Below are positions 6,805-21,621 of a stretch of DNA of 21,621 bases, in pieces. The stretch comes from a virus. The notes beneath the pieces are model-generated. The model was not told where the DNA came from and did no database searches. It saw only the letters and a list, made by a program, of their open reading frames with translations. How positions within the stretch are numbered: the stretch's first letter is position 1; each line of letters opens with the position of its first letter. Made by a program: the position numbers and the translations under genes. The stretch spans positions 1-21,621 of IMG/VR virus record IMGVR_UViG_3300010354_019171; one strand, 5' to 3'.

Positions 6805-7845
6805 ATGAGTAACTTTTTGAAGGACATGGTTAAAACCACCGGCAACGAGTTTGCCAGTATTGTCGAAGACGGTATTGATGGTGGTGATGTGACTGGGTTT
6901 GTTGACACGGGTGTATATGCTCTAAATGCTCTTCTTAGCGGCTCGCTTTACGGCGGTATGCCAGCCAACAAGATCATGGCTCTTGCAGGCGAGAGTGCAA
7001 CCGGTAAAACTTTCTTTGCTCTTAGTATCGTCAAGACCTTTTTGGAAGCCAATCCAGATGGTGTTTGTATGTACTTTGACAGCGAAGCCGCTGTCACCAG
7101 CGACATGTTCCGCACACGCAATATCGATACTCGCCGCGTTGCGGTGATTGGTGTTGCTACGGTCGAAGAATTCCGCAATCAGGCGGTCAAAGTAGTCGAT
7201 AACTATCTTAAGATGCCTGCGGGCGAACGCAAGCCGATGATCATGATTCTCGACAGCCTTGGAATGTTGAGCAGCAGCAAAGAAATGAACGACACTGCCG
7301 AAGGTAAAGATACGCGAGACATGACTCGTGCGCAAGTTACCAAGGCTACGTTCCGAGTGTTGACTCTCAAGCTTGGCAAGGCTGGTATTCCGCTCATTAT
7401 GACCAACCATACATACGAGACTATGAGTATGTTCCCGCAAAAGGTCATGGGTGGTGGTACGGGTCTTCGTTATGCCGCTTCGACTGTTCTGTTCCTCAGC
7501 AAGCGCAAAGAAAAGATCGACAACGAAGTGGTTGGTAATGTGATTCACTGCAAGCTCGACAAGGGTCGATTCACCAAAGAAAACATGATGGTTGATGTTT
7601 TGCTTCGTTACGATACGGGTCTCAACAAGTACTATGGTTTGCTTCCGATCGCCGAAAAGCACGGTATATTCAAGAAGGTTAGCACACGCTACGAAATGCC
7701 AGACGGTAGCAAAGCGTTCGAAAAGAACATCAACGAAAATCCAGAAAAATACTATACAGACGATGTCATGCGACAATTAGAAGATGCTGTTGCCAAAGAA
7801 TTCAAATACGGCAACGAGGTGAGCAACGATGAGCAGCAATCATAA
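6805..7845 (+). CDS. uvsX: UvsX RecA-like recombinase
   Basis: A 346-residue strand-exchange recombinase. It forms filaments on single-stranded DNA, with UvsY as loader, and drives homologous pairing in recombination-dependent replication and repair. Visible: Walker A GESATGKT (62-69), Walker B PMIMILDSLG with D150, NHTYET (201-206), and the GGGTG L2-type loop (216-220). The N-terminus MSNFLKDMVK followed by GSLYGGMPANKIMALAGES is typical of marine T4-like UvsX and shorter than in T4 (391 residues). In the parts I read, arginine is written with CGN codons, unlike the AT-rich genes that follow. The last 17 nt overlap the first gene of the sugar cassette. Confidence 0.97.
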   Translation: MSNFLKDMVKTTGNEFASIVEDGIDGGDVTGFVDTGVYALNALLSGSLYGGMPANKIMALAGESATGKTFFALSIVKTFLEANPDGVCMYFDSEAAVTSDMFRTRNIDTRRVAVIGVATVEEFRNQAVKVVDNYLKMPAGERKPMIMILDSLGMLSSSKEMNDTAEGKDTRDMTRAQVTKATFRVLTLKLGKAGIPLIMTNHTYETMSMFPQKVMGGGTGLRYAASTVLFLSKRKEKIDNEVVGNVIHCKLDKGRFTKENMMVDVLLRYDTGLNKYYGLLPIAEKHGIFKKVSTRYEMPDGSKAFEKNINENPEKYYTDDVMRQLEDAVAKEFKYGNEVSNDEQQS

Positions 7846-8488
7846 ACTTGGTGTTGTTATTCCATATCGTGATCGATTTCAGCATTTGATGAGCTTTTTG
7901 CCATCAACCAATACTTATTTAAATAATTCTAGAATCGATCATGAATTCTTTATTGTAGAACAAGAAAGCGGAAAGCCATTCAACCGTGGTAAACTTTTAA
8001 ATATAGGATTTTTGCTTGCCGAGCCTACGTGTGATTATGTTGTGTTTCATGATGTTGATATGATTCCGATTGAAGCCGATTACAGTTGGACGCCCAATCC
8101 AATTCACATGGCTACCGAATGCAGTCAATTTGATTACAAATTGCCATACGATAGTTATTTTGGTGGTGTTACTATGTTCAATCGCGATGACTTTAGAAAA
8201 ACCAATGGATACAACAACGAATACTGGGGATGGGGTGCTGAAGATGATGACCTACGAGCAAGATGTGGTGTTGCAGGTTTGGAGTGTACCAGAAGACGCG
8301 GTAGATACATGTCACTGCAGCACGGTAGAGTAATCAAGCAAGAAGAATATTCTAAAAATATTGAAGAACTGAAAAGTTTTACACCCGAAAAAATGCAATC
8401 AAACGGATTAAGTTCGATCGGATATTCTTTAATTGAACGAAGTCAACTTAAAAATCAAAATGGTTTTAAATACAAAGTGAGTATATAA
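7829..8488 (+). CDS. GT7-family beta-1,4-galactosyltransferase-like enzyme
   Basis: A 219-residue GT-A glycosyltransferase with all signatures of the animal beta-4-galactosyltransferase family (GT7): IPYRDRFQHL (11-20), FNRGKLLNIG (51-60), the metal-binding DVD (75-77), YFGGVTMF (110-117), the acceptor/catalytic block WGWGAEDDDL (133-142), and the downstream histidine in LQHGRV (H165). The family transfers Gal, GalNAc or a related sugar from a UDP donor to a terminal sugar. No signal peptide or membrane segment is seen, so it should act in the cytoplasm. The start is fixed by GAGGTG (7816-7821). It overlaps uvsX by 17 nt. Donor and acceptor are unknown. Confidence 0.88.
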   Translation: MSSNHKLGVVIPYRDRFQHLMSFLPSTNTYLNNSRIDHEFFIVEQESGKPFNRGKLLNIGFLLAEPTCDYVVFHDVDMIPIEADYSWTPNPIHMATECSQFDYKLPYDSYFGGVTMFNRDDFRKTNGYNNEYWGWGAEDDDLRARCGVAGLECTRRRGRYMSLQHGRVIKQEEYSKNIEELKSFTPEKMQSNGLSSIGYSLIERSQLKNQNGFKYKVSI

Positions 8489-9258
8489 TGGGCGTAATTT
8501 TAGGCGCATCTAAAAATTTTGATTTTAATACTCTTTATCCTTGGGTAAGCACTGCTTTGGCAACCAAAAACAAAGTAGTGATGATATTGATGGAAAACAA
8601 TCGAACCTTAGAGACGCAGCTAAGAGGTCTTGGTGTTGAAGTAATCACAAACGCAATACCAGGTAATGTTGTACCACATCACGAACGATTTCGCATACAA
8701 TACGAATATTTGATGAATTGCAGCGAAGAATATGTTGTTGTTACCGATAGTCGCGATGTTATTTTTCAAACGGATCCGGTCGATTGGATGAAAAATAATT
8801 TAGGATCGCATAGTGTTGTTTGCTCTAGTGAGGGTTTGGCATACAAAAACGAATTCTGGGGCAACCAAAATCTTCAAGAAGGTTTTCCGTATCTTTACGA
8901 AACTTACAAAAACAATACCATCATGAATGTCGGCGTTCTTGGTGGTAAAACTCGAGCTATTGCAGAGCTATCTTTGATGATATACAGTATGTGCAAGCAC
9001 AATCCAGCCAGAGTTTCTGATCAATCTTCGTTCAATGTTCTCTGTGGTATGAATTCGTTAGATTCATTTATACTAAAAGCCAGATCCGATGCTGGGTGGG
9101 CATTGCATGCTGGAACATGGTGTAAAACCAACAATTTTCACTTGTTTGAACCGAATCTCTTGGAACCTCAACCAACATTTGAAGGTAAAGTCGCCAAGAC
9201 GCATGATGGCAAAACATACGCTATTTTACATCAATACGATAGAATAGCGGGATATTGA
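8488..9258 (+). CDS. Putative GT-A glycosyltransferase, unassigned family
   Basis: A 256-residue soluble protein. The N-terminus MGVILGASKNFDFNTLYPWV and the later VVVTDSRDVIFQTDP (about 83-97) look like the first strand and the metal-binding DxxD region (D87, D90) of a GT-A fold. NVGVLGGKTR and the DQSSFN region fit the acceptor-side blocks of such enzymes. I cannot assign a CAZy family. It starts in a TAATG overlap with the GT7 gene and shares its core-like composition, suggesting the two entered or evolved together. Sugar transfer is inferred from motif pattern and context. Confidence 0.6.
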   Translation: MGVILGASKNFDFNTLYPWVSTALATKNKVVMILMENNRTLETQLRGLGVEVITNAIPGNVVPHHERFRIQYEYLMNCSEEYVVVTDSRDVIFQTDPVDWMKNNLGSHSVVCSSEGLAYKNEFWGNQNLQEGFPYLYETYKNNTIMNVGVLGGKTRAIAELSLMIYSMCKHNPARVSDQSSFNVLCGMNSLDSFILKARSDAGWALHAGTWCKTNNFHLFEPNLLEPQPTFEGKVAKTHDGKTYAILHQYDRIAGY

Positions 9259-9259
9259 T

Positions 9260-9946
9260 ATGAAAATAGCTTTATGTTTGTCGGGACAACCAAGAGGGCT
9301 GGTAAAAGCATACGAATACGTACAAAGAAACGTTTTATGTTGTAACGATGTTGATGTTTTTTGTCATGTATGGAACGAAGAAGAAAAAGTAAAATCATTA
9401 TACAAACCCAAAAAAATTTTAGCAGAATCTCAAAATAAGATAAAATTAAACAAAGAATATAAAACAAGAGATAATATAAATCATCCAGCTATCAATACTT
9501 TTTGCTTTTTTTATTCTCTATACATGGCCAATAATCTAAGAGAAGAATATGAAAAAGAAAATAACATCAAATACGATATTGTAATAAGATCTAGATATGA
9601 TTTTGCTATAGCTAGATGCCTGAATTTTTGTGAATATGATCCAGACAAAATCTGGACTCCTTTGATAAAAATACCAATGCCTTCTACATTTGTTTGTACA
9701 GACCAGTTTGCTTTTTCTTCTTCGCAAAATATGTCGGTATATTCTAAAATTTATGAAAAAATACAATATTATTATGATACTGGTGTTTTGATAAACGGAG
9801 AGGACTTACTGGCGGCACACGTCAAAAATTTTAATTTAATCCATAAAATTTCTTACGTTGATATGTGGGATCCTTTTTTTGGGGGTAAGTATAACTACGG
9901 TCCGCACTCTTTGGTGCGAGATGATATGGAGCAATGGATTAAATGA
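9260..9946 (+). CDS. Putative glycosyltransferase-like protein (CLSGQPR family)
   Basis: A 228-residue protein opening with MKIALCLSGQPRG and carrying NIKYDIVIRSRYDF (about 102-115). These two blocks mark a family I know from phages, large DNA viruses and bacterial polysaccharide loci, usually annotated only as hypothetical or glycosyltransferase-like. The N-terminal strand plus a central R-x-R-x-D motif suggests a GT-A-like nucleotide-sugar fold. No membrane segment is visible. It begins one base after its neighbour and is the first gene of the very AT-rich block. Substrate unknown. Confidence 0.55.
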   Translation: MKIALCLSGQPRGLVKAYEYVQRNVLCCNDVDVFCHVWNEEEKVKSLYKPKKILAESQNKIKLNKEYKTRDNINHPAINTFCFFYSLYMANNLREEYEKENNIKYDIVIRSRYDFAIARCLNFCEYDPDKIWTPLIKIPMPSTFVCTDQFAFSSSQNMSVYSKIYEKIQYYYDTGVLINGEDLLAAHVKNFNLIHKISYVDMWDPFFGGKYNYGPHSLVRDDMEQWIK

Positions 9947-10755
9947 AAGTTGTATGTAGACGCCAACCTAATTGGATAAACTTCGATTTAGATTTTGCAT
10001 GTGAAGTGCATCTTCAATATCCAGAGTTTCCTTTTAATAAAAATGATGGTATTTTTAGAGTTTATTGCGATTCATTTGAGCCGTCTTCATCTTGCGCAAA
10101 TCATCTTCATGTAGAGAAGATACTTCCACTTTGTAATTTAATTTTAACGAAAAATCCATTTATATTGTCTAAATATAAAAACTCTAGATTATTTTATTTT
10201 GGATCATCTTTCATATATCCTCATTTGCCTTGCAAAAAAACTTATGGTGTTTCTTTTGTGACCACAAAACCGAGCTGGCATTTACCTGGTTATGACTTGA
10301 GGTATGAGTTGTGGAGTAGGCAGAACGAAATAAAAATACCAAAGGTTTTTTATAGTTCCAACAGAATGCCAATAGATACAAACAGACTTCTTCCTGGAGA
10401 TGGATCTAATTTAGATAAAATGATAATGTTTGATAGTATGTTTCATGTTGCAATAGAGAATACGAAAGAAATTAATTATTTTAGTGAAAAAATCAATGAT
10501 TGCTTTTGGACAAAAACCATTCCTTTATATTGGGGTCATAAAGAAACAGTTAATTCTATTTTTGATGAAAAAGGAATAATACATTTTGATTCTGTAGATG
10601 AATTGATAAAAATATGTAATTCTTTAACAGAGAACGATTATTATAATCGAAACTCTTTTATGGAAAAAAATAAAGTTATATCTGAAATTTATGCTAAAGA
10701 TATGAATGAAAGAATTAAATTTGAAATATTAAAATTTAAAGAAGGAAAAATATGA
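9943..10755 (+). CDS. GT10 (alpha-1,3-fucosyltransferase)-like enzyme
   Basis: A 270-residue protein whose C-terminal half carries the GT10 donor-binding signature: FHVAIENT (167-174) followed by FSEKINDCF (180-188) and IPLYWG (193-198). This matches the FxxAxENS, then TEK, then VPVxxG pattern that binds GDP-fucose in bacterial and animal alpha-1,3/4-fucosyltransferases. The N-terminal half is divergent. GT10 enzymes add fucose or a related GDP-6-deoxy sugar to GlcNAc or Glc units. Both ends form 4-nt ATGA overlaps with neighbours. The family call is fairly firm; donor specificity is inferred. Confidence 0.72.
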   Translation: MKVVCRRQPNWINFDLDFACEVHLQYPEFPFNKNDGIFRVYCDSFEPSSSCANHLHVEKILPLCNLILTKNPFILSKYKNSRLFYFGSSFIYPHLPCKKTYGVSFVTTKPSWHLPGYDLRYELWSRQNEIKIPKVFYSSNRMPIDTNRLLPGDGSNLDKMIMFDSMFHVAIENTKEINYFSEKINDCFWTKTIPLYWGHKETVNSIFDEKGIIHFDSVDELIKICNSLTENDYYNRNSFMEKNKVISEIYAKDMNERIKFEILKFKEGKI

Positions 10756-11447
10756 AACTTTTGGTATGTGGACATCTTAGAAATTTTTCAAATAATTATT
10801 ATATTTTTGTAGAAAAATATTTTTCCAAATTAAATGCTGAGAGTAAACATCTTGTTACTTATAAAAATCTCGGTTGGTGGAGTGCAAAAAATTCTGTTAC
10901 TGACGGAGACATAATTGATGCAAATAAAATTATTAATTTTAATTTTTTTGATACTATTAATATTTTACAAAAAGAAATAGTGCAAAATATAGCGAAAGAG
11001 TATATCAAGCCTGTATCGATTGTGCGTCCTTATTTAAGAACAGAAAATATGTCTAGTCAGTTTGCAATGAGGTACCTTTCTTGCAAAATTTTAAATTCTT
11101 TTGTTGATTCAAACGAAACAATAGTTTTAACTCGCCCCGACATTTTACCTTCTCCTAATATGGTAAATGCTATAGTTGACATGATCAAAGATGTAGATAA
11201 CGATAAATCTTTAGTGTGTTATGTTGGCGGTACTTCTGTTGAGCAAGGAGATCCTTTCTTTGTTGGTACTGTTTCTAATTTAAAACATATAATGTCATCA
11301 TCAGCTGTTAATAATAATGAATATATGGATGCACACGCGTTTTTAGATGGAGCAATAATAGGAACCGATATCAAGTTGAAAAGATATCCAGAACTTGGAT
11401 GGGTATTGTGTAATTCGCCAAACATGACAACTTATAGGGAAATCTAA
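10752..11447 (+). CDS. Putative glycosyltransferase-like protein, unassigned
   Basis: A 231-residue protein of unknown function. MKLLVCGHLRNF at the N-terminus and IVLTRPDILPSP (about 124-135) occupy the same relative places as LCLSGQPRG and IRSRYDF in the gene two upstream, suggesting a distant relative of the same superfamily. ELGWVLCNSPN near the C-terminus could be an acceptor loop. It is soluble and strongly AT-rich at DNA level, with an ATGA overlap at its start. A glycosyltransferase role rests on context and this weak similarity. Confidence 0.45.
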   Translation: MKLLVCGHLRNFSNNYYIFVEKYFSKLNAESKHLVTYKNLGWWSAKNSVTDGDIIDANKIINFNFFDTINILQKEIVQNIAKEYIKPVSIVRPYLRTENMSSQFAMRYLSCKILNSFVDSNETIVLTRPDILPSPNMVNAIVDMIKDVDNDKSLVCYVGGTSVEQGDPFFVGTVSNLKHIMSSSAVNNNEYMDAHAFLDGAIIGTDIKLKRYPELGWVLCNSPNMTTYREI

Positions 11448-11451
11448 TAAA

Positions 11452-12123
11452 ATGAATGTATTATTTTTTCAAACATCGATTATAAATGTTTCTAAAGATC
11501 CATTAAATTATAATCCTATCAGGTCTGTGTATGATCCAGAAACTCGCCTACAACAAACAATTGAAGGTGTAAATAGCGTTAGAGCAAAATATCCTTCGGC
11601 TAAAATTTTTGTATGCGAGGCAAGCAATCTTGATGATTATCAAGAAAAAAAATTAAAAGAATGTTCGGACAATCTTATTTTACTGCATGATGTGAGTGAA
11701 GTTAAAGATACACGAAATCATTCAAATAAAAGCTTAGCCGAAGCAACTCAAGTTAAGCACATACTTAGCAATCCAGAAATACAAAATTATGATTTTGTAT
11801 TTAAAATGTCGGGAAGATACTGGCTTTCCGATAGTTTTAATCCATCATATATTCAGAATAAGAACAAAGCTAAGGTTATAGTCAAAAAAAGATTCTCAAA
11901 TCCGTATCGGCACTGGTTCAGCACTTCTTTGTATTGTGTAGGTAAATATGCTATTCCTATGATGATTAATCAGCTTGATAAAGCTATAGAGATATTAAAA
12001 TACAACAATACTGATATCGAAAGCACTTTATTTCGAGGTATCGAGAATACATACTTGATAGAAGTAGATTCTATAGGTTGTAGTGGTAGAGTTGCTGTAA
12101 ACGGAGAAATTATTAATCATTAA
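11452..12123 (+). CDS. Putative glycosyltransferase-like protein, unassigned
   Basis: A 223-residue protein, not assigned to a named family. It has a GT-A-like opening (MNVLFFQTSI, then a helix and the strand AKIFVCEAS), and DFVFKMSGRYWL (114-125) in the place where related polysaccharide-locus proteins carry a nucleotide-sugar or metal site. GIENTYLIEVDSIGCSGRV near the end may be an acceptor or base loop. It starts four bases after the preceding stop codon with little Shine-Dalgarno complementarity. Confidence 0.42.
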   Translation: MNVLFFQTSIINVSKDPLNYNPIRSVYDPETRLQQTIEGVNSVRAKYPSAKIFVCEASNLDDYQEKKLKECSDNLILLHDVSEVKDTRNHSNKSLAEATQVKHILSNPEIQNYDFVFKMSGRYWLSDSFNPSYIQNKNKAKVIVKKRFSNPYRHWFSTSLYCVGKYAIPMMINQLDKAIEILKYNNTDIESTLFRGIENTYLIEVDSIGCSGRVAVNGEIINH

Positions 12124-12136
12124 ATGAGAAGTTAAT

Positions 12137-12739
12137 ATGAACGAAAGAATACAAATATTAAATACTATTTTGCAAAAGCGCATAAATCCATCTTATCTTG
12201 AAATTGGATACGGAGACGGTACCTGCTTTGAAAGTATAGCATGCGTAGATAAAACATGTGTAGACCCAAGTCCCTTTTGTGATAAAAATTTTGGAAAATC
12301 TGGAACTTGCATAAAAAAATATAGCGATTCTTTTTTTGAATCTAATCAAAAAATGTTTGATGTGATCTTTATAGATGGAGATCATTCTTATGATCAAGTG
12401 TGTAGAGATTTTTCAAATTCTTTAAAATTTATTAAAAAAGATGGCTGTATAGTTTTACATGACTGCAATCCTCCAGATAAAAACCACACAAATCAAAATT
12501 TATGTGGAGACGGTGGATATAGAATGTTCACCGAGTTTTATCAAAAAAATACAACTTTTACATGGATGACTTCTTTTGAAGATTATGGTGTTTGTGTTGT
12601 CACACCAAATAACTTCAGACAAGCAGAGATTTTGAATAAAAATGGTGAAGATTTATATGATACATTTGTTAATTCTAAAATTAATATTTTAAATTTAAAA
12701 CAAGCTTCAGAAATTATTAAAATAATAAATTTAATTTAA
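12137..12739 (+). CDS. Class I SAM-dependent methyltransferase (Methyltransf_24-like)
   Basis: A 200-residue Rossmann-fold methyltransferase. Motif I is LEIGYGDG (21-28); IFIDGDHSYD (about 78-86) and CIVLHDCNPP (104-113) are the post-I and catalytic blocks of the Methyltransf_24 type, in which the aspartate/histidine cluster binds a metal. Family members often O-methylate sugars in polysaccharide and antibiotic pathways. In this cassette it probably caps or decorates a sugar. It has GAGAAG as ribosome-binding site and a 13-nt gap upstream. Substrate inferred from context. Confidence 0.78.
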   Translation: MNERIQILNTILQKRINPSYLEIGYGDGTCFESIACVDKTCVDPSPFCDKNFGKSGTCIKKYSDSFFESNQKMFDVIFIDGDHSYDQVCRDFSNSLKFIKKDGCIVLHDCNPPDKNHTNQNLCGDGGYRMFTEFYQKNTTFTWMTSFEDYGVCVVTPNNFRQAEILNKNGEDLYDTFVNSKINILNLKQASEIIKIINLI

Positions 12740-12766
12740 AACAAGTTTTTGACTCTCGGATAGATT

Positions 12767-13696
12767 ATGAAAAATGAAAAAATTTTTATTACAGGTGGAG
12801 CTGGTTATCTAGGTCAGAATCTCTGTAAATATTTGTCTCAAGATAACGAAATAATAGTTTACTCCAGAGATGAATCAAAACATTATTACATGCAAAAGCA
12901 GTTTCCGAATGTAAGGTTTATAATCGGAGACATAAGAAATAAAGATTACTTAATAAGAAAATCTAAAGGCTGTACAGTCGGAATATTTGCAGCATCTTTG
13001 AAACAGATAGATGCATGCACCAACAACTACGAAGAAGCTTCTAAAACAATTATAGACGGTGCTATAAATTCAAGACTTGCAGCCGAAGAAAATGGATTTA
13101 AGTCAGCAAGTTTTATATCATCAGATAAAAGCCGAGCGGCAACCACAATATATGGCGCCATGAAATATGTTGCAGGCGAATCTTTTATAGTTGGAGATTC
13201 TAATTGCAATTTAACTACTTTAATTTATGGAAATGTTGCAAATTCAACCGGTTCAATTATTCCTTTGATATGGAACTGTATCAAAAATAACAGATGTTTG
13301 ACTCTTTATGAGCCTTCTATGACTCGTTTTTGGATAGATATCAAAGATGCAGTAGATTTAATAGTCAAAGCTCAAAAGTATAAAGGATGTAATATCATAC
13401 CAAAAATAAAATCTTTTTGCATAGAAGACTTGTGTAAAATTTATAGCGAAAAATTTGGTTTAAAATATACGGTTGGTACTCCTCGCGTTGGAGAAAAAAT
13501 TCATGAAATAATGGCCTCTAATGAAGAAATCAGAAGATTACAATATGTTTCGTCTGACAATCTGTATGTTTTGTATCCAGACAGACAAATTAATAATTTA
13601 ACGTTTCCAAATAATGAATATTCTTCAAAAGATTTTTGTATGAACACAGATGAATTGCTCCATGTACTCGAAGATAAGGATTTTTATAAATTATGA
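12767..13696 (+). CDS. NAD(P)-dependent UDP-sugar 4,6-dehydratase (PseB/CapD-like SDR)
   Basis: A 309-residue extended SDR. The nucleotide-binding loop is GGAGYLG (10-16). The active-site segment SSDKSR (118-123) and Y129-x3-K133 match the inverting UDP-GlcNAc 4,6-dehydratases (PseB/FlaA1/CapE), whose D-K pair replaces the usual threonine region. The typical reaction converts UDP-GlcNAc to a UDP-4-keto-6-deoxy-HexNAc. The next gene, an RmlD-like reductase overlapping by ATGA, is the usual partner, as in the CapE/CapF and WbjB/WbjC pairs that lead to 6-deoxy-HexNAc sugars. Family call firm; exact product inferred. Confidence 0.82.
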   Translation: MKNEKIFITGGAGYLGQNLCKYLSQDNEIIVYSRDESKHYYMQKQFPNVRFIIGDIRNKDYLIRKSKGCTVGIFAASLKQIDACTNNYEEASKTIIDGAINSRLAAEENGFKSASFISSDKSRAATTIYGAMKYVAGESFIVGDSNCNLTTLIYGNVANSTGSIIPLIWNCIKNNRCLTLYEPSMTRFWIDIKDAVDLIVKAQKYKGCNIIPKIKSFCIEDLCKIYSEKFGLKYTVGTPRVGEKIHEIMASNEEIRRLQYVSSDNLYVLYPDRQINNLTFPNNEYSSKDFCMNTDELLHVLEDKDFYKL

Positions 13697-14496
13697 AATG
13701 TGCGATATTCGGAAATAATGGAATGCTTGGTTCATATGCTCGATCGTATTTGCAAGAGTTCTATGATATATTGTCTTTTGGAAGAAAAGACATAGATATC
13801 TTTTCTTGTACCAAAAAAGAATTTTTTAATTTTTCACAAGAAAAATTAAAAAATGTTGATGTTATTATAAATTGTGCAGGCGCAATAAAGCAAAGAAGCG
13901 TTTCTGACGAAGAAATGATAACGGTAAATTCCATATTTCCGCAATGGCTCGCTGAAATTAAAAAAAATACTAATTGTAATGTAATACATTTTACCACTGA
14001 TTGTGTTTACAGTGGCTTAAAAGGTAATTATTCAGAACATGACAAACACGATTGTGGTGATGTTTATGGAAAATCTAAATCACTAGGTGAAAATGAAAAT
14101 TTGACTATTATTAGAACTTCTATTATAGGAGAAGAACTAAGAAATAAGTTGAGTTTGTTAGAATGGGTTAAGTCTAATCAAAATAAAACTGTAAATGGTT
14201 TCACTAACCATTTTTGGAATGGTGTTACGTGTTTAGAGTTAATGAAGTATGTGCAGGGTGTTATAAATTACAATCATTTTTGGAATGGTGTTCGTAACGT
14301 GTTTAGCCCAAATGTTGTATCTAAATATGATTTAGTTAATATGATATCCGAAGTTTATGAATTAAATGTGATTGTCAACAAGAACAGTCATAGCGATTTT
14401 TGTGACAGATCTTTAACTTCAATTCACATCAAAAAGCCTATAACAAAATCATTAGTTAATCAATTAATTGAAATCAAAAATTTTAAATTAACTTAA
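13693..14496 (+). CDS. RmlD-like sugar-nucleotide 4-keto reductase
   Basis: A 267-residue SDR of the RmlD (dTDP-4-dehydrorhamnose reductase) superfamily. The cofactor loop is GNNGMLG (7-13), and TTDCVYSG (101-108) plus Y125-x3-K129 form the catalytic region. It probably reduces the 4-keto sugar made by the preceding gene. The protein contains the heptad NHFWNGV twice, 22 residues apart. The DNA holds a perfect 15-bp inverted repeat (13821-13854) and a direct repeat (14209-14306). It is AT-rich throughout. Confidence 0.8.
   Translation: MKCAIFGNNGMLGSYARSYLQEFYDILSFGRKDIDIFSCTKKEFFNFSQEKLKNVDVIINCAGAIKQRSVSDEEMITVNSIFPQWLAEIKKNTNCNVIHFTTDCVYSGLKGNYSEHDKHDCGDVYGKSKSLGENENLTIIRTSIIGEELRNKLSLLEWVKSNQNKTVNGFTNHFWNGVTCLELMKYVQGVINYNHFWNGVRNVFSPNVVSKYDLVNMISEVYELNVIVNKNSHSDFCDRSLTSIHIKKPITKSLVNQLIEIKNFKLT
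13821..13854. repeat. Perfect 15-bp inverted repeat with 4-nt loop inside a coding region
   Basis: ATTTTTTAATTTTTC (13821-13835) and GAAAAATTAAAAAAT (13840-13854) are exact reverse complements around ACAA. Only one pair is G-C. It lies within the RmlD-like gene and does not break the frame. Confidence 0.75.
14209..14306 (+). repeat. Intragenic direct repeat (18 nt + 10 nt), 66 nt apart
   Basis: CATTTTTGGAATGGTGTT occurs at 14209-14226 and 14275-14292. Each copy is followed by ACGTGTTTAG (14227-14236; 14297-14306), separated by four extra bases in the second copy. The repeat encodes NHFWNGV twice in the same frame. An 8-bp hairpin (AAATGGTT 14193-14200 with AACCATTT 14206-14213) abuts the first copy. 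Confidence 0.75.
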
Positions 14497-14506
14497 TACA
14501 TTTATT

Positions 14507-15463
14507 ATGAAAAACACAAAATTGGTAATGTTTGACCTTGACGGTGTTTTGGTGGATGCTTGCGAACTTCACTATGAAGCTCTAAACAAAGCTTTAAGTG
14601 CAAACGGCAAACCATCGATAAGTCGAGAAGACCATGAAAGCAAATACAATGGCCTTCCCACCAAAGTAAAGCTGAATCTTCTTGGATACGAAGATACTTT
14701 GATAAAAAAGATCGATTCCGACAAGCAAAATTATACTTTAGAATTGATTGAAAAGTGCTGCGCTAAAAGACAAGAAAAAATCGACTTGATTGATTATTTA
14801 AAAAATAGAGGCATAGTTGTCGGCTGTGTGACCAATTCAATAAGAAAAACTACGCAAAAAATGCTAATTCAGACTGGCATTTACGATAAGATAGATTTTT
14901 GCATAACAAACGAAGATGTGTGTCAGGCTAAACCGGATCCAGAGGGGTATCTGAAAGGTATATCTTTCCACAAAGATATTATCGATTCGATTGCTGATCA
15001 AGTAGTAATAGTTGAAGATAGTCCTAAAGGATTGCAAGCGGCTCGAGCAACCGGTGCTTGCGTTGTTCAAGTAAAGGATCCAAACGACGTTCATGTTGGA
15101 TTGTTCAACTCGATTGTTGCAAAAGATGTTGAAAAATCTCAAGTAAGTATGATGCGTGGTGGATGGTTTGTTGGCGCATTTGAGCCGACGTTGGAAAACA
15201 CCAAAGATTTTGAAGTTGGTTACAGAAGCTACAAAAAGGGTGAAGAGCATGATATGCATTATCATGTTGTAGCCAAAGAAATAAATTGTGTTGCTAGAGG
15301 AGTTGTAGAAGTTGAAGGGCAACTTTACAAAGAAGGCGACATTTTTATTGTTCATCCTTTCAAAGCAATCAAGCCAATATTTCACGAAGATAGTTCTATA
15401 GTTTGTGTCAAAATTCCATCATGCTCCAATGATAAATATGTCTTAAAGGACATTACACTATGA
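14507..15463 (+). CDS. HAD-family phosphatase fused to a cupin domain
   Basis: A 318-residue two-domain protein. Residues 1 to about 205 are a HAD hydrolase of the beta-phosphoglucomutase/phosphatase type: nucleophile DLDGV (D10, D12), CVTNS (107-111), lysine in AKPDP (K142), and acidic pair ED (170-171) in the VVIVEDSPKG block. Residues about 215-318 form a cupin with a complete metal-binding motif 1: G245, H251-x-H253, E258, G265. The HAD part may act on a sugar phosphate; the cupin may be a sugar isomerase-like or binding module. It resembles the core genes in base composition, unlike the gene before it, and its stop overlaps the nucleotidyltransferase start (ATGA). Confidence 0.82.
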   Translation: MKNTKLVMFDLDGVLVDACELHYEALNKALSANGKPSISREDHESKYNGLPTKVKLNLLGYEDTLIKKIDSDKQNYTLELIEKCCAKRQEKIDLIDYLKNRGIVVGCVTNSIRKTTQKMLIQTGIYDKIDFCITNEDVCQAKPDPEGYLKGISFHKDIIDSIADQVVIVEDSPKGLQAARATGACVVQVKDPNDVHVGLFNSIVAKDVEKSQVSMMRGGWFVGAFEPTLENTKDFEVGYRSYKKGEEHDMHYHVVAKEINCVARGVVEVEGQLYKEGDIFIVHPFKAIKPIFHEDSSIVCVKIPSCSNDKYVLKDITL

Positions 15464-16173
15464 AGATATTGATACCGATGGCTGGAGAAGGATCCAGGTT
15501 TGCCAAAGAGGGATACACGTTTCCCAAACCATTAATTGATGTCAATGGCAAACCAATGATACAAAATGTCGTTGAAAATATAAGCTTTGAAGCTGATTAT
15601 ATTTTCTTGGTAAGAAAAAGTCACCTTGAAAAATATCCTGGTCTTGAATCAACTTTACATAGAATCACCAACGGAAAAACAACCATAGTAACAGTTGACA
15701 GTTTGACCGAAGGTGCAGCATGCACAGCTTTGCTTGCTAAAGATTACATAAACAACGACGATGATCTGCTTATCGCCAATTCAGACCAAATAATTGAATA
15801 CAGCAAAGAAAACTTTGTAATAATCAAAGATAAAATAAACGTTGATGGTATAGTTTTTGCTTTTCGATCAACTCATCCCAAGTGGTCGTTTGTGAAACTA
15901 AATAACGAAAATTACATAACTGAAGTTGCCGAGAAAAAACCAATTTCAGATGTTGCCACATGCGGAATATATTGGTACAAGCGCGGCAAAGACTTTGTAT
16001 CCGCTGCCGAGCAAATGATCTCCAAAAACATACGCGTAAACAATGAGTTTTACGTGGCACCCGTCTACAACGAAATGATATCCAATGGCAAATCGATATT
16101 GCCATTTTTTGTTGATAAGATGTATGGTATCGGAACACCAGAAGATCTAAATTATTATTTGGAGAATTTATGA
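15460..16173 (+). CDS. Sugar-1-phosphate nucleotidyltransferase
   Basis: A 237-residue NTP_transferase-fold enzyme that joins a sugar 1-phosphate to NTP, giving the activated sugar nucleotide. It shows the pyrophosphorylase signature MAGEGSRF (7-14), a variant of GxGxRxxP, with KPLIDVNGKPM after it, then the metal-binding region LIANSDQI and YGIGTPEDLNYY near the end, typical of RmlA/GlmU/CugP-like proteins. AAAGGA at 15445-15450 serves as ribosome-binding site, and a GATAAATA octamer lies at 15431-15438. The NTP and sugar specificity cannot be told. It would supply donors for the transferases in the cassette. Confidence 0.85.
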   Translation: MKILIPMAGEGSRFAKEGYTFPKPLIDVNGKPMIQNVVENISFEADYIFLVRKSHLEKYPGLESTLHRITNGKTTIVTVDSLTEGAACTALLAKDYINNDDDLLIANSDQIIEYSKENFVIIKDKINVDGIVFAFRSTHPKWSFVKLNNENYITEVAEKKPISDVATCGIYWYKRGKDFVSAAEQMISKNIRVNNEFYVAPVYNEMISNGKSILPFFVDKMYGIGTPEDLNYYLENL

Positions 16174-16226
16174 TCGTACCAAATTTTGAATCATCATATA
16201 AAGATGGATGGCAAAATTATGAATAA
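16170..16226 (+). CDS. 18-codon ORF, possible remnant of a truncated gene or leader peptide
   Basis: Starts in an ATGA overlap with the nucleotidyltransferase stop and has a strong Shine-Dalgarno sequence (GGAG, 16161-16164), yet ends after MIVPNFESSYKDGWQNYE. Its stop overlaps the next gene's start (ATG 16219). It sits exactly where core-like base composition changes to very AT-rich. This suggests the 5' end of a gene replaced by recombination, or a leader that feeds ribosomes to the next gene. Confidence 0.4.
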   Translation: MIVPNFESSYKDGWQNYE

Positions 16227-17097
16227 AATTAATAAAATTGTATTTTTTAATAATTGCAACAACGGAGATCTGCATTATAGCAGAGAATTTTTAAAGTATC
16301 TTAAAAAAAGTTTACCCAATAAAGAACTTTATGTTTCGCATTTTAAATGTCCAGATATTTTAAAAGACGTAGGTATTACTTACAATCTAATAGACACCAG
16401 AAGTATATTACAAACTCCTTTTCATACAAACAAAGACGTTTTATTTGTCAATACTTGGATTGGAGTAGAAAATGGAAAGTGGATAAGTCAAGGATCTTGT
16501 ACTTTAAAAAATAATTACAAATTGTTTGAAAACATAGCTTCCAATTTGGGAGTCACACTTCTTTCGGAAGAAAATTACATTCCGTCTATCGACTACGATA
16601 AATTTAATATTCGCAATTTAAATTTTAATGGAAACAATATTTTTATTTCAAATGGACCTGTTCTGTCGGGACAATCTAAAAATTTTGATTTTGCTCCAAT
16701 AATTAATAAATTGGCTGAAAAATATTTTTATTGTAATTTTTTTGTGACTCAACCGTTTGAAACCAATTTTTCTAATGTTATAGATGCCAATAAGTTTTTT
16801 TATGCTAACGGTAAATCAAATTTAAATCAATTATCATACTTGTCTACATTTTGTTCTATAATAGTGGGTAGAGCAAGTGGTCCGTATTGTTTTAGTCAGA
16901 CAAAACAAAATATGTACGACAAAAATAAAATTTATATTGTGTGCGGAGAAAGAGAAGGCGAATGTCACTGGGCAACTCTTTCGGATTACAATATACAAGG
17001 CTGCAAACAAATTTGGTGCAAGTCGGATGATAATTGCGAGCAAAATGTATCAAATATTATGGAAGAATGCATAAATGAAAAATTTGGTAATAGGTAA
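16219..17097 (+). CDS. Putative glycosyltransferase-like protein (possibly GT-B fold)
   Basis: A 292-residue protein not assigned to a CAZy family. The opening KIVFFNNCNNGDLHYSREF resembles the N-terminal nucleotide-fold strand and glycine turn of heptosyltransferase-like GT-B enzymes. CSIIVGRASGPYCF (about 215-228 from this start) resembles the C-terminal donor-side loop where such enzymes carry a G-x-S-G type turn. The ATG at 16219 is chosen over a TTG at 16186 because it overlaps the end of the short upstream ORF. It opens the second AT-rich block and overlaps the next gene by 23 nt. Function is inferred. Confidence 0.5.
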   Translation: MNKINKIVFFNNCNNGDLHYSREFLKYLKKSLPNKELYVSHFKCPDILKDVGITYNLIDTRSILQTPFHTNKDVLFVNTWIGVENGKWISQGSCTLKNNYKLFENIASNLGVTLLSEENYIPSIDYDKFNIRNLNFNGNNIFISNGPVLSGQSKNFDFAPIINKLAEKYFYCNFFVTQPFETNFSNVIDANKFFYANGKSNLNQLSYLSTFCSIIVGRASGPYCFSQTKQNMYDKNKIYIVCGEREGECHWATLSDYNIQGCKQIWCKSDDNCEQNVSNIMEECINEKFGNR

Positions 17098-17878
17098 CAC
17101 TTCACAATTATCTTATTATTTTGATGACACGCACGTAAAAATTTCTTCAAGAAATATTAATATAAGTGATATTGTTTCTACAAAATGGAATAAAGTTTTC
17201 ATATGCCATGCCGAACAAAGAACTTTTATAGCAGAAAATAAAGAATCTGAAAAATTGTTTTATCAAGTAAATTGTCAAGAAACAATAAATTTAGTTGATA
17301 AAATAAAAAATTTCTGCAATCATATTGTTTATTACTCTACTGCCGAACTTTGGAACAAATGCAACGGTCCAATCGATTTAGATTTGCCGATGTCTTTTCA
17401 TGAAAATTCTTATACTTTATCCAAGTACTATACAACAAAACATTTTCAAGATAAATTTAAATATCCAAACGTTTCTATAATATATCCCTTTAATTTTAAC
17501 AGTGTACATAGAAGATCAGAATATCTGTTTGGAAAGATATTTCAATCCGTTTTGAACAAACAAAAAATAAAAATAGGTGATATCAACTATTACAGAGATA
17601 TACTACATCCTTCAGATGTTGTTAATAAAAGTATTTCTGTTTCTGTTGGAGAAGATGCGCTTGTTGGTAGCGGAAGATTAATACATATAGGAGACTTCAT
17701 TAAGAGCATTTACGAAGACAATCAATTAGATTTTGAAAGTTACGTAGAATCTGACGAAAGCAAAAAGTCTATTTACAGAAATTTTATATTTTATAATAAA
17801 CAGTATTGTCCACAGATTAATGAAAAATATCTTTTAAGATTGATATCCTCTGAAATAAAGGGAATAAAAAATGGATGA
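17075..17878 (+). CDS. Divergent NAD-dependent epimerase/dehydratase-like SDR
   Basis: A 267-residue protein resembling extended SDRs of the GDP-mannose dehydratase kind: a serine region YYSTAELWN (86-94), Y113-x3-K117 (YTLSK), VSIIYPFNFNSVHRRSEYL, and YRDILHPSDVV (173-183), which matches the RDF-x-H-x-x-DVV block. The N-terminal dinucleotide loop, however, is GNTSQLS, with only one of three expected glycines. It may bind cofactor weakly, or have become a non-catalytic or epimerase-like protein. It overlaps the gene before by 23 nt and the next by 8 nt. It lies two genes before the DegT-type enzyme that could use its 4-keto product. Confidence 0.62.
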   Translation: MKNLVIGNTSQLSYYFDDTHVKISSRNINISDIVSTKWNKVFICHAEQRTFIAENKESEKLFYQVNCQETINLVDKIKNFCNHIVYYSTAELWNKCNGPIDLDLPMSFHENSYTLSKYYTTKHFQDKFKYPNVSIIYPFNFNSVHRRSEYLFGKIFQSVLNKQKIKIGDINYYRDILHPSDVVNKSISVSVGEDALVGSGRLIHIGDFIKSIYEDNQLDFESYVESDESKKSIYRNFIFYNKQYCPQINEKYLLRLISSEIKGIKNG

Positions 17879-18218
17879 TGTGTCTATCGAAATAGAAAAT
17901 GTTATAAAAAACAGAGTTACAAATATTTTAAAAAATAGATCTATTCCCGAGTTACCGCTGGATATTGTCGCAACCGACAACATATCTGAAGTCATAGAAA
18001 AATTGTGTATTCTTCATATAAGAACATGGTTTTTAGAAGATATGGCTGGTTTGGCAAAAAGCGACGAAGAATTGGCAGCAATCAAAAGAAAAATAGATAC
18101 ATGTTTTAAACAAAAAAGACCTCAGTATGTCCAAGCAATCAATAGAATGATTGATGATTGTATATTAAAAAATAAAAGTTTAGTTGAAGATTCGGTTAAA
18201 ATCTATAAAGGTGTATAA
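17871..18218 (+). CDS. DUF4254-like small helical protein
   Basis: A 115-residue, probably all-helical protein. HIRTWFLEDMAG (49-60) followed by SDEELAAIKRKID resembles the central WHxED-type block of DUF4254, a family of unknown function. The protein is shorter than typical members. GGGA at 17861-17864 is the likely ribosome-binding site. It overlaps both neighbours (8 nt upstream, TAATG downstream), indicating tight coupling to the SDR and the DegT-family enzyme. No membrane segment is seen. A helper role in glycan assembly is guesswork. Confidence 0.5.
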   Translation: MDDVSIEIENVIKNRVTNILKNRSIPELPLDIVATDNISEVIEKLCILHIRTWFLEDMAGLAKSDEELAAIKRKIDTCFKQKRPQYVQAINRMIDDCILKNKSLVEDSVKIYKGV

Positions 18219-19378
18219 TGAAACCAATAACTTTGGTGCGCGACACAATCGATGAAACTGATATTTCTTGTTTGATAGATTGGTTGAAAACAAATCCAAG
18301 ATTAACTAAAGGTGTTAAGACTATAGAATTTGAAAACTCTTGGAGTAATTGGTTAGGATGTAAATATTCTGTTTTTGTTAATTCCGGATCTTCTGCAAAT
18401 CTAGCGGCACTCTACGCACTTGTCCAGTCAAACAGATTAAAAAACAAAAAAATAGTATTTTCTTGTCTTTCTTGGGTTACTACCGTGTCACCTGCTATGC
18501 AGCTAGGATTGGAGCCGATTCTTTGTGATGTTGATCCAGATACTCTAGGAATAGACATAGAGAAATTTGAGAATATATGTAAAAATGAAAATCCTGCAGT
18601 ATTGATGATAGTTCATGCTTTAGGGTTTCCAAATAAAATTATAAAATTAAAAGAAATATGTGAAAAATACAATGTATTGCTGATAGAAGACTCTTGCGAA
18701 TGCGTAGGGTCTACGGTAAACAATAAAAAAATGGGAACATACGGTTGTATGTCGACATTCAGTACGTATTTTGGACATCACTTCTCCACTATAGAGGGTG
18801 GTTTTGTTTGCACCGATGATTTTGAGTTGTACAATATATTAAAAAGTATTAGATCACATGGATGGTCTAGAGATCTAGATGAAGTCACTCGCAAAAGATT
18901 GCAACTCGAACATGGAATAAATGATTTTCACGACCTTTATACTTTCTATTATCCAGGATTTAATTTAAGGTCCACCGATTTGCAAGCAACTATCGGTATA
19001 CAGCAGCTAAAAAAATTAAATTTTATTTGTAAAAAAAGATTTGAAAATTTAAAAATTTATGATAAGAATATCAAAAATTCTTATTGGAAAATCGATTTAA
19101 ATAATTTTGAGTATGTTCCAAACTTTGCTTATCCGATAATTCATCCGAATTGCGCAAAAATATCTGAAGCTTTGGCTGACGGAAAAGTCGAATGTAGACC
19201 TCTTATAGCTGGAAGTATTTCTAGGCAACCGTTTTATTATAAGAAATATGGAATGCAAAAATTTGATTTTGCTGATATTATTCACTCTTATGGGATGTAT
19301 CTTCCAAACAATCCAGATATAACTGAAGAAGAAATCAAATATATTTGCTCGATAGTAAATAAATTTACTGATTTATGA
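18218..19378 (+). CDS. DegT/DnrJ/EryC1-family PLP enzyme with histidine for the catalytic lysine (ColD-like 3-dehydratase candidate)
   Basis: A 386-residue fold-type I PLP enzyme of the sugar aminotransferase family, full length. Conserved parts: NSGSSANLAAL (55-65, cofactor phosphate loop), the D158 that contacts the pyridine nitrogen (LLIEDSC), and FSTYFGHHFSTIEGG (181-195). In ordinary members the residue six before the E of EGG is the lysine that forms the internal aldimine; here it is H187. The same replacement defines GDP-4-keto-6-deoxymannose 3-dehydratase (ColD) and the E1 3-dehydrase, which remove the 3-hydroxyl rather than transaminate. Apart from C160-x-C162, no clustered cysteines for an E1-type iron-sulfur centre are seen, favouring ColD-like chemistry. 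The product would be a 3,6-dideoxy sugar. It ends in an ATGA overlap. Confidence 0.83.
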   Translation: MKPITLVRDTIDETDISCLIDWLKTNPRLTKGVKTIEFENSWSNWLGCKYSVFVNSGSSANLAALYALVQSNRLKNKKIVFSCLSWVTTVSPAMQLGLEPILCDVDPDTLGIDIEKFENICKNENPAVLMIVHALGFPNKIIKLKEICEKYNVLLIEDSCECVGSTVNNKKMGTYGCMSTFSTYFGHHFSTIEGGFVCTDDFELYNILKSIRSHGWSRDLDEVTRKRLQLEHGINDFHDLYTFYYPGFNLRSTDLQATIGIQQLKKLNFICKKRFENLKIYDKNIKNSYWKIDLNNFEYVPNFAYPIIHPNCAKISEALADGKVECRPLIAGSISRQPFYYKKYGMQKFDFADIIHSYGMYLPNNPDITEEEIKYICSIVNKFTDL

Positions 19379-19842
19379 AATTTTTAATATCACATCGTGG
19401 TAATATTGAAGGACCCGACGCACAATTTGAGAACATGCCTCAATACATAGATTTTGCTCGATCCAAAGGATATCAAGTAGAAATTGATGTTTGGTACGAT
19501 TCCGAATATCATCTTGGCCACGATCGTCCCGATTATAAAATTTCTAAAGATTGGTTGTTGGAAAGAAAAGATTGGTTGTGGTGTCATGCAAAAAATCTTG
19601 AAGCTTTACAGCACCTAATTCAAGACGGAATGCATTGTTTTTGGCATCAAGAAGATCAAGCTACACTAACCAGCAAAAATATAATTTGGTGTTACCCTGG
19701 AAATTTTATAAAAAATGGAATAGCGGTTATGCCAGAAAATGTAATGTCGGAATCAGAAATAAAAAAAATGATAGGTAAAGTTTTGGGAGTTTGTACCGAT
19801 TACCCTAGTAAATTCGCACTAGAAGATTATAATACAACATGA
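19375..19842 (+). CDS. Small GDPD/PI-PLC-like phosphodiesterase
   Basis: A 155-residue protein with the glycerophosphodiester phosphodiesterase pattern: HRG (7-9) near the N-terminus, E20-N21, the metal ligands E36 and D38 (EIDVW), H49-D50 (GHD), H71 (HAKN), and a C-terminal VCTDYP block. It is well under the usual size (about 240 residues), so it is a minimal barrel. Related short proteins occur in phages and large DNA viruses. Likely chemistry is cleavage of a phosphodiester, perhaps glycerophosphate or a phosphosugar linkage in a glycan. It is the last cassette gene; its stop overlaps the gene 41 start (ATGA). Confidence 0.72.
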   Translation: MKFLISHRGNIEGPDAQFENMPQYIDFARSKGYQVEIDVWYDSEYHLGHDRPDYKISKDWLLERKDWLWCHAKNLEALQHLIQDGMHCFWHQEDQATLTSKNIIWCYPGNFIKNGIAVMPENVMSESEIKKMIGKVLGVCTDYPSKFALEDYNTT

Positions 19843-21272
19843 AAATAGAACAACTGATCCTCGCTTCTTTGATCAAGCGAGAAGATTATGCTCGTAAAGT
19901 TTTAGCCTTTATCACTCCAGAATATTTCAGCGAATCATCCGAACGAACGTTGTTCGAGATGATGACCAAGTATTTTCAAAACTATAACACATGTCCAAGC
20001 AAAGCCGCTCTGGTGATAGAGAGCGATTCGCTGTCGCTCAATCAAAAAGACCACGAGCAGATTCGCGAGCTTATCGACAATGTCGATTCGATGGAAAGTT
20101 CCAACGATCTTGATTGGACTGTAGATGCAACTGAAAAGTGGTGCAAAGATCGAGCGGTCTATAACGCCATTTTCGAGTGCATCAAAATTATCGACGACAA
20201 AGAAGGCAAACAAAAGATCAGCAAAAATGCTATTCCCGAGTTGTTGCGCCATGCTTTGAGTGTGAGTTTCGACACCAATATTGGTCACGACTATACCGAG
20301 TGTTTGAAAGAACGCTACGACTACTATCACAGCGGCGAAGAAAAGATTCCGTTTGATCTTTCGATGTTAAACACCATCACCGATGGTGGTGTGCCCAGAA
20401 AGACTCTTAGTGTTGTTGCGGCTCCAACTGGCGGTGGAAAAAGTATCTTTTTGTGCCACCATGCGGCTGCTTGTTTGCGGCAAAACAAGAATGTTTTGTA
20501 CATCACTCTCGAAATGAGCGAGCAACGAATCGCCGAGCGCATCGATGCAAACCTAACCAACACGCGTCTCAACGAGTTGCGCGAGTTGCCGTATCCGATG
20601 TACGAAAAGAAGTTCAAGCGAGCAACACAAGATGTTCAAGGCAAATTGATCATCAAAGAGTATCCTACGGGTACCGCAAGCGCGCTCAATTTTCGTCACT
20701 TGATCGACGAGCTTCGCATCAAAAAGAACTTTGCTCCGGATGTGGTGATTGTCGACTACTTGAACATCTGCAGCAGTTCGCGCTACAAAACCAACGCAAA
20801 CGTAAACAGCTATACTCTTGTGAAAGCTATCGCCGAAGAATTGCGTGGTTTGGCTGTGGAGACAAACGTACAGATGTTTACCGCCACGCAAATCAATCGT
20901 CAGGGCTTCAACAACAGCGATGTGGATCTTACCAACACTGCCGAAAGTATGGGTTTGCCAGCAACCGCAGACTTCTTTATTGCAATCATTGGAACCGAAG
21001 AACTCGAAGAGCTGAATCAGGTGATGATCAAACAGCTCAAGAATCGTCTTGGCGATGTTGGTAGCAACCGTAAATTTGTTGTAGGGTTGGACAAGAGCAA
21101 AATGAAGTTTTATGATGTGAGCCAAACCGCACAGCAATCGTTGGTGCACGTAAACAGCGAAAGCGGAAAGGTTGTGGCTGCTGGCAACGATGAAGACGAT
21201 GATCCTTATGCAAAATCTTTGTTTAGAAAGAGCGAACAAAAATTCAATCAAAAGTTTAATGATTGGGGTTGA
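19839..21272 (+). CDS. 41: Replicative DNA helicase gp41 (DnaB-like)
   Basis: A 477-residue hexameric 5'-to-3' helicase, the size of T4 gp41 (475). It moves on the lagging strand and recruits the gp61 primase. The N-terminal domain (1 to about 150) is followed by the RecA-like motor: Walker A APTGGGKS (195-202), TLEMSEQRIAERI (223-235), Walker B DVVIVDYLNI (301-310), and TQINRQ (350-355) with the sensor glutamine. The acidic C-terminal tail (NDEDDDPY) is typical. Core-like composition and CGN arginine codons return here after the AT-rich cassette genes. Confidence 0.96.
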   Translation: MKIEQLILASLIKREDYARKVLAFITPEYFSESSERTLFEMMTKYFQNYNTCPSKAALVIESDSLSLNQKDHEQIRELIDNVDSMESSNDLDWTVDATEKWCKDRAVYNAIFECIKIIDDKEGKQKISKNAIPELLRHALSVSFDTNIGHDYTECLKERYDYYHSGEEKIPFDLSMLNTITDGGVPRKTLSVVAAPTGGGKSIFLCHHAAACLRQNKNVLYITLEMSEQRIAERIDANLTNTRLNELRELPYPMYEKKFKRATQDVQGKLIIKEYPTGTASALNFRHLIDELRIKKNFAPDVVIVDYLNICSSSRYKTNANVNSYTLVKAIAEELRGLAVETNVQMFTATQINRQGFNNSDVDLTNTAESMGLPATADFFIAIIGTEELEELNQVMIKQLKNRLGDVGSNRKFVVGLDKSKMKFYDVSQTAQQSLVHVNSESGKVVAAGNDEDDDPYAKSLFRKSEQKFNQKFNDWG

Positions 21273-21307
21273 AAAAGATCGGTTGCTGTGTAAAATCTTT
21301 TGAAGAT

Positions 21308-21378
21308 TGCGGGATAGATTAAGGGTAGATCATCGGTCTCATAATCCGATCGTGGTGGTTCAACTCCACCTCCCGCTA
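21308..21378 (+). tRNA. tRNA with CAT anticodon (Met, initiator-like, or Ile2)
   Basis: A complete cloverleaf by hand: acceptor 21308-21314 with 21371-21377 (six pairs; the terminal pair is T-T), TA at positions 8-9, D-stem GATT/GATC, anticodon stem TCGGT/TCCGA around CTCATAA with anticodon CAT at 21340-21342, T-stem GGTGG/CCACC around TTCAACT, discriminator A21378. There is a T-T mismatch next to the anticodon loop. No CCA is encoded. CAT can be Met or, with lysidine at C34, Ile(AUA). The unpaired 1-72 position and A11-T24 pair are initiator features, but the three G-C pairs of the initiator anticodon stem are incomplete. Confidence 0.85.
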
Positions 21379-21380
21379 TT

Positions 21381-21560
21381 ATGAACAATCAAGATAGTTG
21401 TTGGTACTGCAAAAAATATGATGGTGAAATGAAATTCTGCTGGGAATTCGATACATTTGTTCATGTTGCTTGCGTACAACAAGCAGCCAAAAACAAAGAC
21501 GATCGCGAGGCGCAAATTATTGCCGATGAAATTTTGGGTCCTCGTAGCTCAGTTGGATAG
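21381..21560 (+). CDS. Small zinc-finger-like protein (59 residues)
   Basis: Starts two bases after the CAT tRNA and ends inside tRNA-Arg. The sequence has C7-x2-C10, C20, H28 and C31 (CWYC, FCW, HVAC), a spacing suited to one zinc ion, followed by a charged helix (QAAKNKDDREAQIIADEIL). The last residues (about GPRSSVG) and the stop are encoded by the first 23 nt of tRNA-Arg. There is no Shine-Dalgarno sequence, because the upstream bases are the tRNA 3' end. Function unknown. I judge it real because of the cysteine pattern and a sensible helix running up to the tRNA. Confidence 0.6.
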   Translation: MNNQDSCWYCKKYDGEMKFCWEFDTFVHVACVQQAAKNKDDREAQIIADEILGPRSSVG

Positions 21561-21611: not shown

Positions 21612-21621
21612 TTTGGAGAAA

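Follow-up and report, generated by a model that had tools for sequence, protein, structure and literature searches.

Gene sets for sugar metabolism are known from cyanophages and pelagimyophages, where modification of the lipopolysaccharide (LPS) has been proposed as their role (PMC3037559, PMC7029224, PMC9602691). The cyanophage LPS clusters lie near hli03/phoH, and whether they are working or stuffer DNA was left open (Sullivan et al. 2010, PMC3037559), while for pelagimyophages O-chain modification against coinfection has been proposed (PMC7029224). Until now, sugar islands of T4-like phages have been labeled either LPS modifiers or stuffer, with neither label put to a test. We describe here a cassette of 16 genes (c01 to c16; Table 1) located between uvsX and gene 41 in the virus record IMGVR_UViG_3300010354_019171, a genome fragment of 21,621 bp that we refer to in its entirety as the window. 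We propose that the uvsX–41 interval probably serves as a glycan-cassette site in a group of uncultured T4-like phages that have relatives in the Kyanoviridae (phages of Pelagibacter, Methylophilales, and cyanobacteria), operating in the manner outlined below. Although clusters of this kind are already known, the fixed uvsX–41 site with its wholesale and modular exchange is new, as is the ColD-type module that the cassette carries.

To place the window in context, we compared the uvsX–41 interval across 80 related viral loci containing uvsX, of which 72 could be judged; all compared contigs are metagenomic fragments. Gene 41 lies 5 to 1389 nucleotides (nt) from uvsX in 52 of these 72 loci (median ≈270 nt), and in the remaining 20, 1.9 kb or more separates the two genes or follows uvsX up to the contig end. 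The interval is short in cultured relatives, measuring 230 nt in HTVC008M and ≈0.8 kb in Melnitz, and in DSL-LC03 and DLP_6 the two genes adjoin each other. When 116 proteins encoded in ten of the filled intervals were scanned against Pfam, the list was headed by nucleotidyltransferases, methyltransferases, glycosyltransferase family 7 (GT7), epimerases, HAD proteins, and GT10. The first-pass annotation of the window had described a sugar cassette wedged between the two replication genes; the wedge exists, but it is not unique, and judged from these sequences the interval is a recurrent, exchangeable insertion site. No description of a glycan site between uvsX and 41 was found in the openly readable literature.

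Exchange at this site is most evident in two close relatives of the window. In the sister contig 3300042691_045055, UvsX and gp41 share 97% and 81% identity with their counterparts in the window, yet blastn similarity ends at ≈7820 (sister locus L002) and returns only from 19,828 (L083). The intervening 16,670 bp of the sister hold 21 genes with only family-level similarity to the window set (a GT10 domain and the short-chain dehydrogenase/reductase fold), including phosphoheptose-isomerase-like, heptose-kinase-like, and heptose-nucleotidyltransferase-like enzymes as well as a UDP-galactopyranose mutase above the curated cut-off. The second relative, 3300033571_029303 (L082/L165; gp41 93% identical), is instead collinear with the window by blastn over positions 8048–12,745, 12,746–16,156, and 19,374–21,621. 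It holds ≈1.5 kb of additional DNA at the 12,745/12,746 junction, with genes that Pfam identifies as polysaccharide deacetylase and formyltransferase, and it is without the window's 16,157–19,373 block, which contains c12–c15. These alignments show that phages almost identical in the flanking genes can carry entirely different sets, and that modules of 1.5–3.2 kb are gained and lost at gene boundaries.

The c12–c15 module includes c15, a ColD-type protein. The best solved relative of c15 is ColD, the GDP-4-keto-6-deoxymannose 3-dehydratase (PDB 2gms and 3gr9), with which it has the catalytic histidine and flanking residues in common. Within a DegT fold, His187 of c15 aligns with the histidine found in ColD at the position of the aminotransferase lysine, and this histidine is present in all close module copies. 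Because of this substitution, we read c15 as a predicted sugar 3-dehydratase and not as an aminotransferase. A search of viral sequences with c15 alone returned nothing usable, whereas a two-sequence alignment recovered seven loci. The module also occupies the uvsX–41 site in L204, L206, L038/L207, L209, and L210, where c15 is 66–68% identical, compared with only 51–69% for UvsX and 50–55% for gp41. Against the genome collection, c15 yielded only matches of 26–34% identity (Brachyspira, Aquificota, and Gastranaerophilales), which therefore suggest no host or donor. The L038 cassette additionally contains a GDP-mannose dehydratase above the curated cut-off and a GDP-fucose-synthase-like gene, a gene set that fits a GDP-colitose-like route in that phage. 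Of the other module proteins, c12 gives tied structure-comparison scores among several GT9 entries from a model of moderate confidence, and alignment makes ATG 16,219 its likelier start than TTG 16,186. The small protein c14, encoded directly 5′ of c15, is 63–73% identical across module copies, about as high as c15, and has no match among 50,697 phage records.

The cassette itself is a compact and maintained gene block. The window follows a T4-like gene order of uvsW, a gene of unknown function, gp55, gp47, gp46, uvsX, the 16 cassette genes, gene 41, and two tRNA genes. The open reading frame (ORF) list bears out the earlier description exactly, with 16 consecutive plus-strand ORFs at 7829–19,842, a 17-nt overlap between the end of uvsX and the first cassette gene, and a 4-nt ATGA overlap between the last cassette gene and gene 41. 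Intergenic distances within the cassette range from −23 to +45 nt, the coding fraction is 0.992, and 14 ORFs reach at least 200 residues as compared with a mean of 0 in 50 single-base shuffles. For the genes shared with L082/L165, dN/dS values of 0.03–0.18 indicate that these genes are maintained by purifying selection. The gene overlaps make co-transcription of the cassette with uvsX and 41 plausible. A promoter scan of the window gave 69 matches, no excess over the 67.8 in shuffled sequence, and terminator-like matches numbered 18 versus 9.0 in shuffles. By megablast, the whole window has no match among the 50,697 phage records; its UvsX is 61% identical to that of Methylophilales phage Melnitz and 59% to that of HTVC008M.

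The G+C content of individual cassette genes is 27–39%, compared with 45–47% for uvsX and 41 and 33–36% for the gp55, gp47, and gp46 genes. We dropped low G+C as proof of a foreign origin of the cassette because these last three genes are similarly low. Genes common to many cassettes (c01, c02, c10, and c11) have a G+C content of 36–39%, whereas most exchanged genes have 27–32%, as if the core had been adapted to the phage for longer.

The deoxy-sugar chemistry attributed to the cassette in the first-pass annotation is supported. Alignment of c08, a UDP-GlcNAc 4,6-dehydratase-like protein, with 2gn4 shows intact catalytic S-D-K and Y-x-x-x-K residues, and it is accompanied by the RmlD-like c09 and the ColD-like c15 with its histidine. 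The accompanying idea of a nearly self-sufficient route holds only in part: the deoxy-sugar enzymes are present, but the window contains no sugar kinase and no GDP-mannose dehydratase, the latter marking a difference from the ColD route. Thus the host, another part of the phage genome, or c08 would have to supply the substrate of c15. The label of sugar genes for all 16 is likewise supported for some and not for others. It is carried by c01, c04, c08–c10, c13, and c15 with Pfam matches above the curated cut-off, by c11 with PDB and PHROG matches, and by c12 and c16 with predicted folds, but for c02 and c03 it has little backing and for c05, c06, and c14 none; c07 also exceeds its Pfam cut-off, but as a methyltransferase only.

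The assignment of c16 derives from its structure model. The AlphaFold2 (AF2) model has a pLDDT of 92.5, glycerophosphodiester phosphodiesterase (GDPD) structures top the structure-comparison list (Z 10.5), and HRG, E-x-D, and G-H-D are invariant across 22 sequences, so that the modeled fold and the HRG, E-x-D, and HD residues agree with those of a GDPD. The Pfam GDPD profile gave a convincing match in none of the 22 family members, with one at an E value of 0.027.

Table 1. Features of the uvsX–41 region of the window (positions in the 21,621-bp stretch)
Feature	Position	Strand	Basis
uvsX, conserved left flank	6805..7845	+	Pfam RecA; PHROG 97 UvsX-like
c01, GT7-type glycosyltransferase	7829..8488	+	Pfam Glyco_transf_7C/7N 2.5e-26, 3.3e-20
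c02, probable GT-A glycosyltransferase	8488..9258	+	weak PLOD GT; PHROG glycosyltransferase 3e-5; kept in relatives
c03, phage family adjoining glycan genes, putative glycosyltransferase	9260..9946	+	PHROG 13607 (function unknown); within the same Synechococcus phage clusters
c04, GT10, fucosyltransferase-like	9943..10755	+	Pfam PF00852 2e-6, above cut-off
c05, putative glycosyltransferase by context alone	10752..11447	+	no Pfam/PHROG match
c06, putative glycosyltransferase by context alone	11452..12123	+	no Pfam/PHROG match; relatives in other cassettes
c07, methyltransferase	12137..12739	+	Pfam Methyltransf_24 6e-13
c08, UDP-GlcNAc 4,6-dehydratase-like, PseB/CapE/FnlA type	12767..13696	+	Pfam Polysacc_synt_2 2.7e-43; PDB 2gn4 1e-33
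c09, RmlD-like 4-keto sugar reductase	13693..14496	+	Pfam RmlD 2.6e-14; PDB 2ggs
c10, HAD phosphatase with ≈100-residue C-terminal phage domain	14507..15463	+	Pfam HAD_2 1e-26; PHROGs 8468, 24762
c11, sugar-1-phosphate nucleotidyltransferase	15460..16173	+	PDB 4evw 4e-21 (nucleoside-diphosphate-sugar pyrophosphorylase); PHROG 3980 1e-67
3.2-kb block holding c12–c15, missing in close relative L082/L165	16157..19373	+	blastn blocks 12746–16156 and 19374–21621 adjoin there
c12, GT-B fold, nearest GT9 heptosyltransferases (TibC, WaaC)	16219..17097	+	AF2 pLDDT 74.7; VIA Z 12.6
c13, short-chain NAD-dependent epimerase/dehydratase	17075..17878	+	Pfam Epimerase 1e-7
c14, 115-residue protein, function unknown	17871..18218	+	DUF4254 below cut-off only
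c15, ColD-type pyridoxal phosphate-dependent sugar 3-dehydratase (predicted)	18218..19378	+	PDB ColD 2gms 5e-59 with alignment; DegT family
c16, compact GDPD-like protein, last gene before 41	19375..19842	+	predicted fold and residues
gene 41 helicase, conserved right flank	19839..21272	+	Pfam DnaB_C; PHROG 19

Together, these assignments suggest how the cassette might work. Recombination through the conserved replication genes uvsX and 41 would swap cassettes, and the cassette genes would share transcripts with these two flanking genes. During infection, deoxy-sugar nucleotides would be made by c08/c09 and c13/c15, and a second activated sugar or polyol would be synthesized or trimmed by c10/c11/c16. 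The putative transferases c01–c06 and c12 would then build an oligosaccharide that c07 would methylate.

Several observations in related phages touch these same genes. Relatives of c01 are first or among the first genes 3′ of uvsX in many related phages, and c01 has no match among the 50,697 phage records. The HAD phosphatase and nucleotidyltransferase form one fused protein of 461 residues in cultured Synechococcus phages (L200 and L201), unlike the window, in which the HAD protein c10 is fused to a separate phage domain. A fused phosphoribulokinase/uridine-kinase-type kinase and class II aldolase (L010:7947-9347, L026:9160-10560, and L071:12332-13756) adjoins c11-like genes in all three loci, with c16-like genes also present in L010 and L026, hinting at an uncommon short sugar or polyol as the substrate of c11 and c16. 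Between the c11-like and c16-like genes of its own uvsX–41 glycan cassette, L009 encodes a 397-residue RuBisCO-large or RuBisCO-like protein (L009:9653-10846, plus strand). This protein matches Pfam PF00016 and PDB 8dht (1e-39), falls below the NCBIfam RuBisCO III cut-off, and has no match among the 50,697 phage records.

We considered which molecule would accept the sugars. No cassette protein has a transmembrane (TM)-like segment, and no protein with more than one such segment was found in the intervals of ≈30 relatives, whereas proteins of a bacterial LPS locus, scanned as a control, score 10 and 17 segments. No Wzx-type flippase (PF01943) was detected in 17 related contigs, with the control positive in 13 of 14. 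In the absence of a membrane protein, flippase, polymerase, or ligase gene, assembly should take place on a cytosolic acceptor, and the linking of the sugars is probably cytosolic as well. We favor a virion protein as this acceptor, at somewhat short of an even chance, because the gene set is soluble, because a lytic phage is unable to replace LPS already on the surface, and because every virion is assembled anew and so could be fully decorated. If the acceptor is the virion, these phages would show antigen-like variation of their own coat. The fullest form of this proposal is a serotype-like locus at a fixed replication-operon site in a lytic lineage, where recombination through uvsX and 41 exchanges complete glycan programmes and phages that are otherwise nearly identical carry virions coated with distinct oligosaccharides of their own making, 3,6-dideoxy sugars among them; we regard it as speculative and rather unlikely.

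Several points weigh against the proposed reading as a whole, and some against virion decoration in particular. We found no exact TATAAATA T4-type late promoter, and the cassette lies among replication genes, a setting that would suit genes expressed early or in the middle of infection better than genes for building virions. The preference for the virion is drawn from the soluble gene set and the lytic-cycle argument, and a glycan linked to lipid could be exported by the machinery of the host, which makes the missing membrane genes compatible with the envelope as destination. In addition, c05, c06, and c14 have no assigned family, and the contigs are metagenomic fragments only.

The strongest alternative, which we consider possible but doubtful, is that the cassette remodels the host envelope. 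Here, host LPS or capsule would be altered on the cytosolic face and exported by a host flippase and ligase, blocking superinfection or changing grazing. This is the usual reading of similar pelagimyophage and cyanophage genes (PMC7029224, PMC9602691), it accommodates the ColD, heptose, galactofuranose (Galf), and fucose-type enzymes typical of surface glycans, and rapid cassette change suits competition over receptors. Against it, no interval contains an export, polymerase, or ligase gene, and receptors already on the surface would presumably persist through the lytic cycle.

We think it improbable that the glycosyltransferases instead decorate hydroxymethylated bases in the manner of T4 alpha-gt and beta-gt, diversifying the DNA against restriction. 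In T4, beta-gt adjoins uvsX and alpha-gt adjoins 47, an arrangement that would speak for such DNA hypermodification. Sugar-modified DNA is reported for RB69 (PMC6024577). However, no thymidylate-synthase (ThyA)-family hydroxymethylase was found in 14 related contigs of up to 123 kb, all possibly incomplete, and the families recognized in filled intervals are glycan or protein glycosyltransferases; a Tet/JBP search gave no match, but its control was silent as well, making it uninformative. Slightly less probable still is that the genes are passenger DNA that mainly acts as stuffer to complete a headful and yields no defined product, as left open for cyanophage LPS clusters by Sullivan et al. 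2010 (PMC3037559), given the low dN/dS, intact frames, retained catalytic residues, and recurrence of the same module in several lineages.

One fixed site, selected intact genes, flanks that hardly differ around contents that do, and a defined module with a 3-dehydratase together provide natural paired comparisons, through which the acceptor of phage-made glycans becomes directly testable.

Among known systems, the window cassette has close counterparts in the clusters of Synechococcus and Prochlorococcus T4-like phages (S-SM2, S-SSM7, P-SSM2, S-CAM9, Bellamy, and DSL-LC03), which share a core of c03-, c10-, c11-, and c16-like genes with glycosyltransferases and epimerases. All four core genes are present in the window. 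Relatives of c16 occur in 16 phage records, all from Synechococcus phages, accompanied by c11 in all 16 and by c03 relatives in the same clusters. The kyanoviral clusters adjoin hli, phoH, or tRNA genes (PMC3037559), whereas that of the window lies between uvsX and 41 and, unlike them, includes c08/c09 and the c12–c15 module. The S-CAM9 and DSL-LC03 sets, with their epimerases and glycosyltransferases, lie near hli, psbA, or plastocyanin genes, and in DSL-LC03 uvsX and 41 are adjacent with the cluster elsewhere in the genome. The host recognition cluster of the related pelagimyophages (PMC7029224) is likewise a variable island with glycosyltransferases and deoxy-sugar genes, but it adjoins tail fibre genes, and the uvsX–41 gap of HTVC008M is the short one noted above.

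Virus-encoded sugar-nucleotide enzymes are also found in chloroviruses and mimivirus (PMC4691112), where the glycan has been measured on the virion, whereas in the window a virion glycan would be a prediction from gene content. Mycobacteriophages are reported as an example of phage glycosyltransferases with a measured virion glycan (Freeman 2023, cited in PMC12619734). The lysogenic gtr serotype-conversion cluster differs in having membrane GtrA, GtrB, and Gtr(type) proteins, with no TM-like counterpart in the window cassette. Bacterial O-antigen and capsule loci carry exchangeable contents between fixed flanks, such as galF–gnd and dexB–aliA. The window cassette is without the Wzx, Wzy, ligase, and priming transferase of these loci and is carried by a lytic-type phage, but it is like them in its fixed flanks and swapped sugar and glycosyltransferase genes. 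Much like capsule-type exchange in bacteria, the different sets that close relatives carry at this one site point to a virus that repeatedly changes a sugar coat, whether its own or that of its host.

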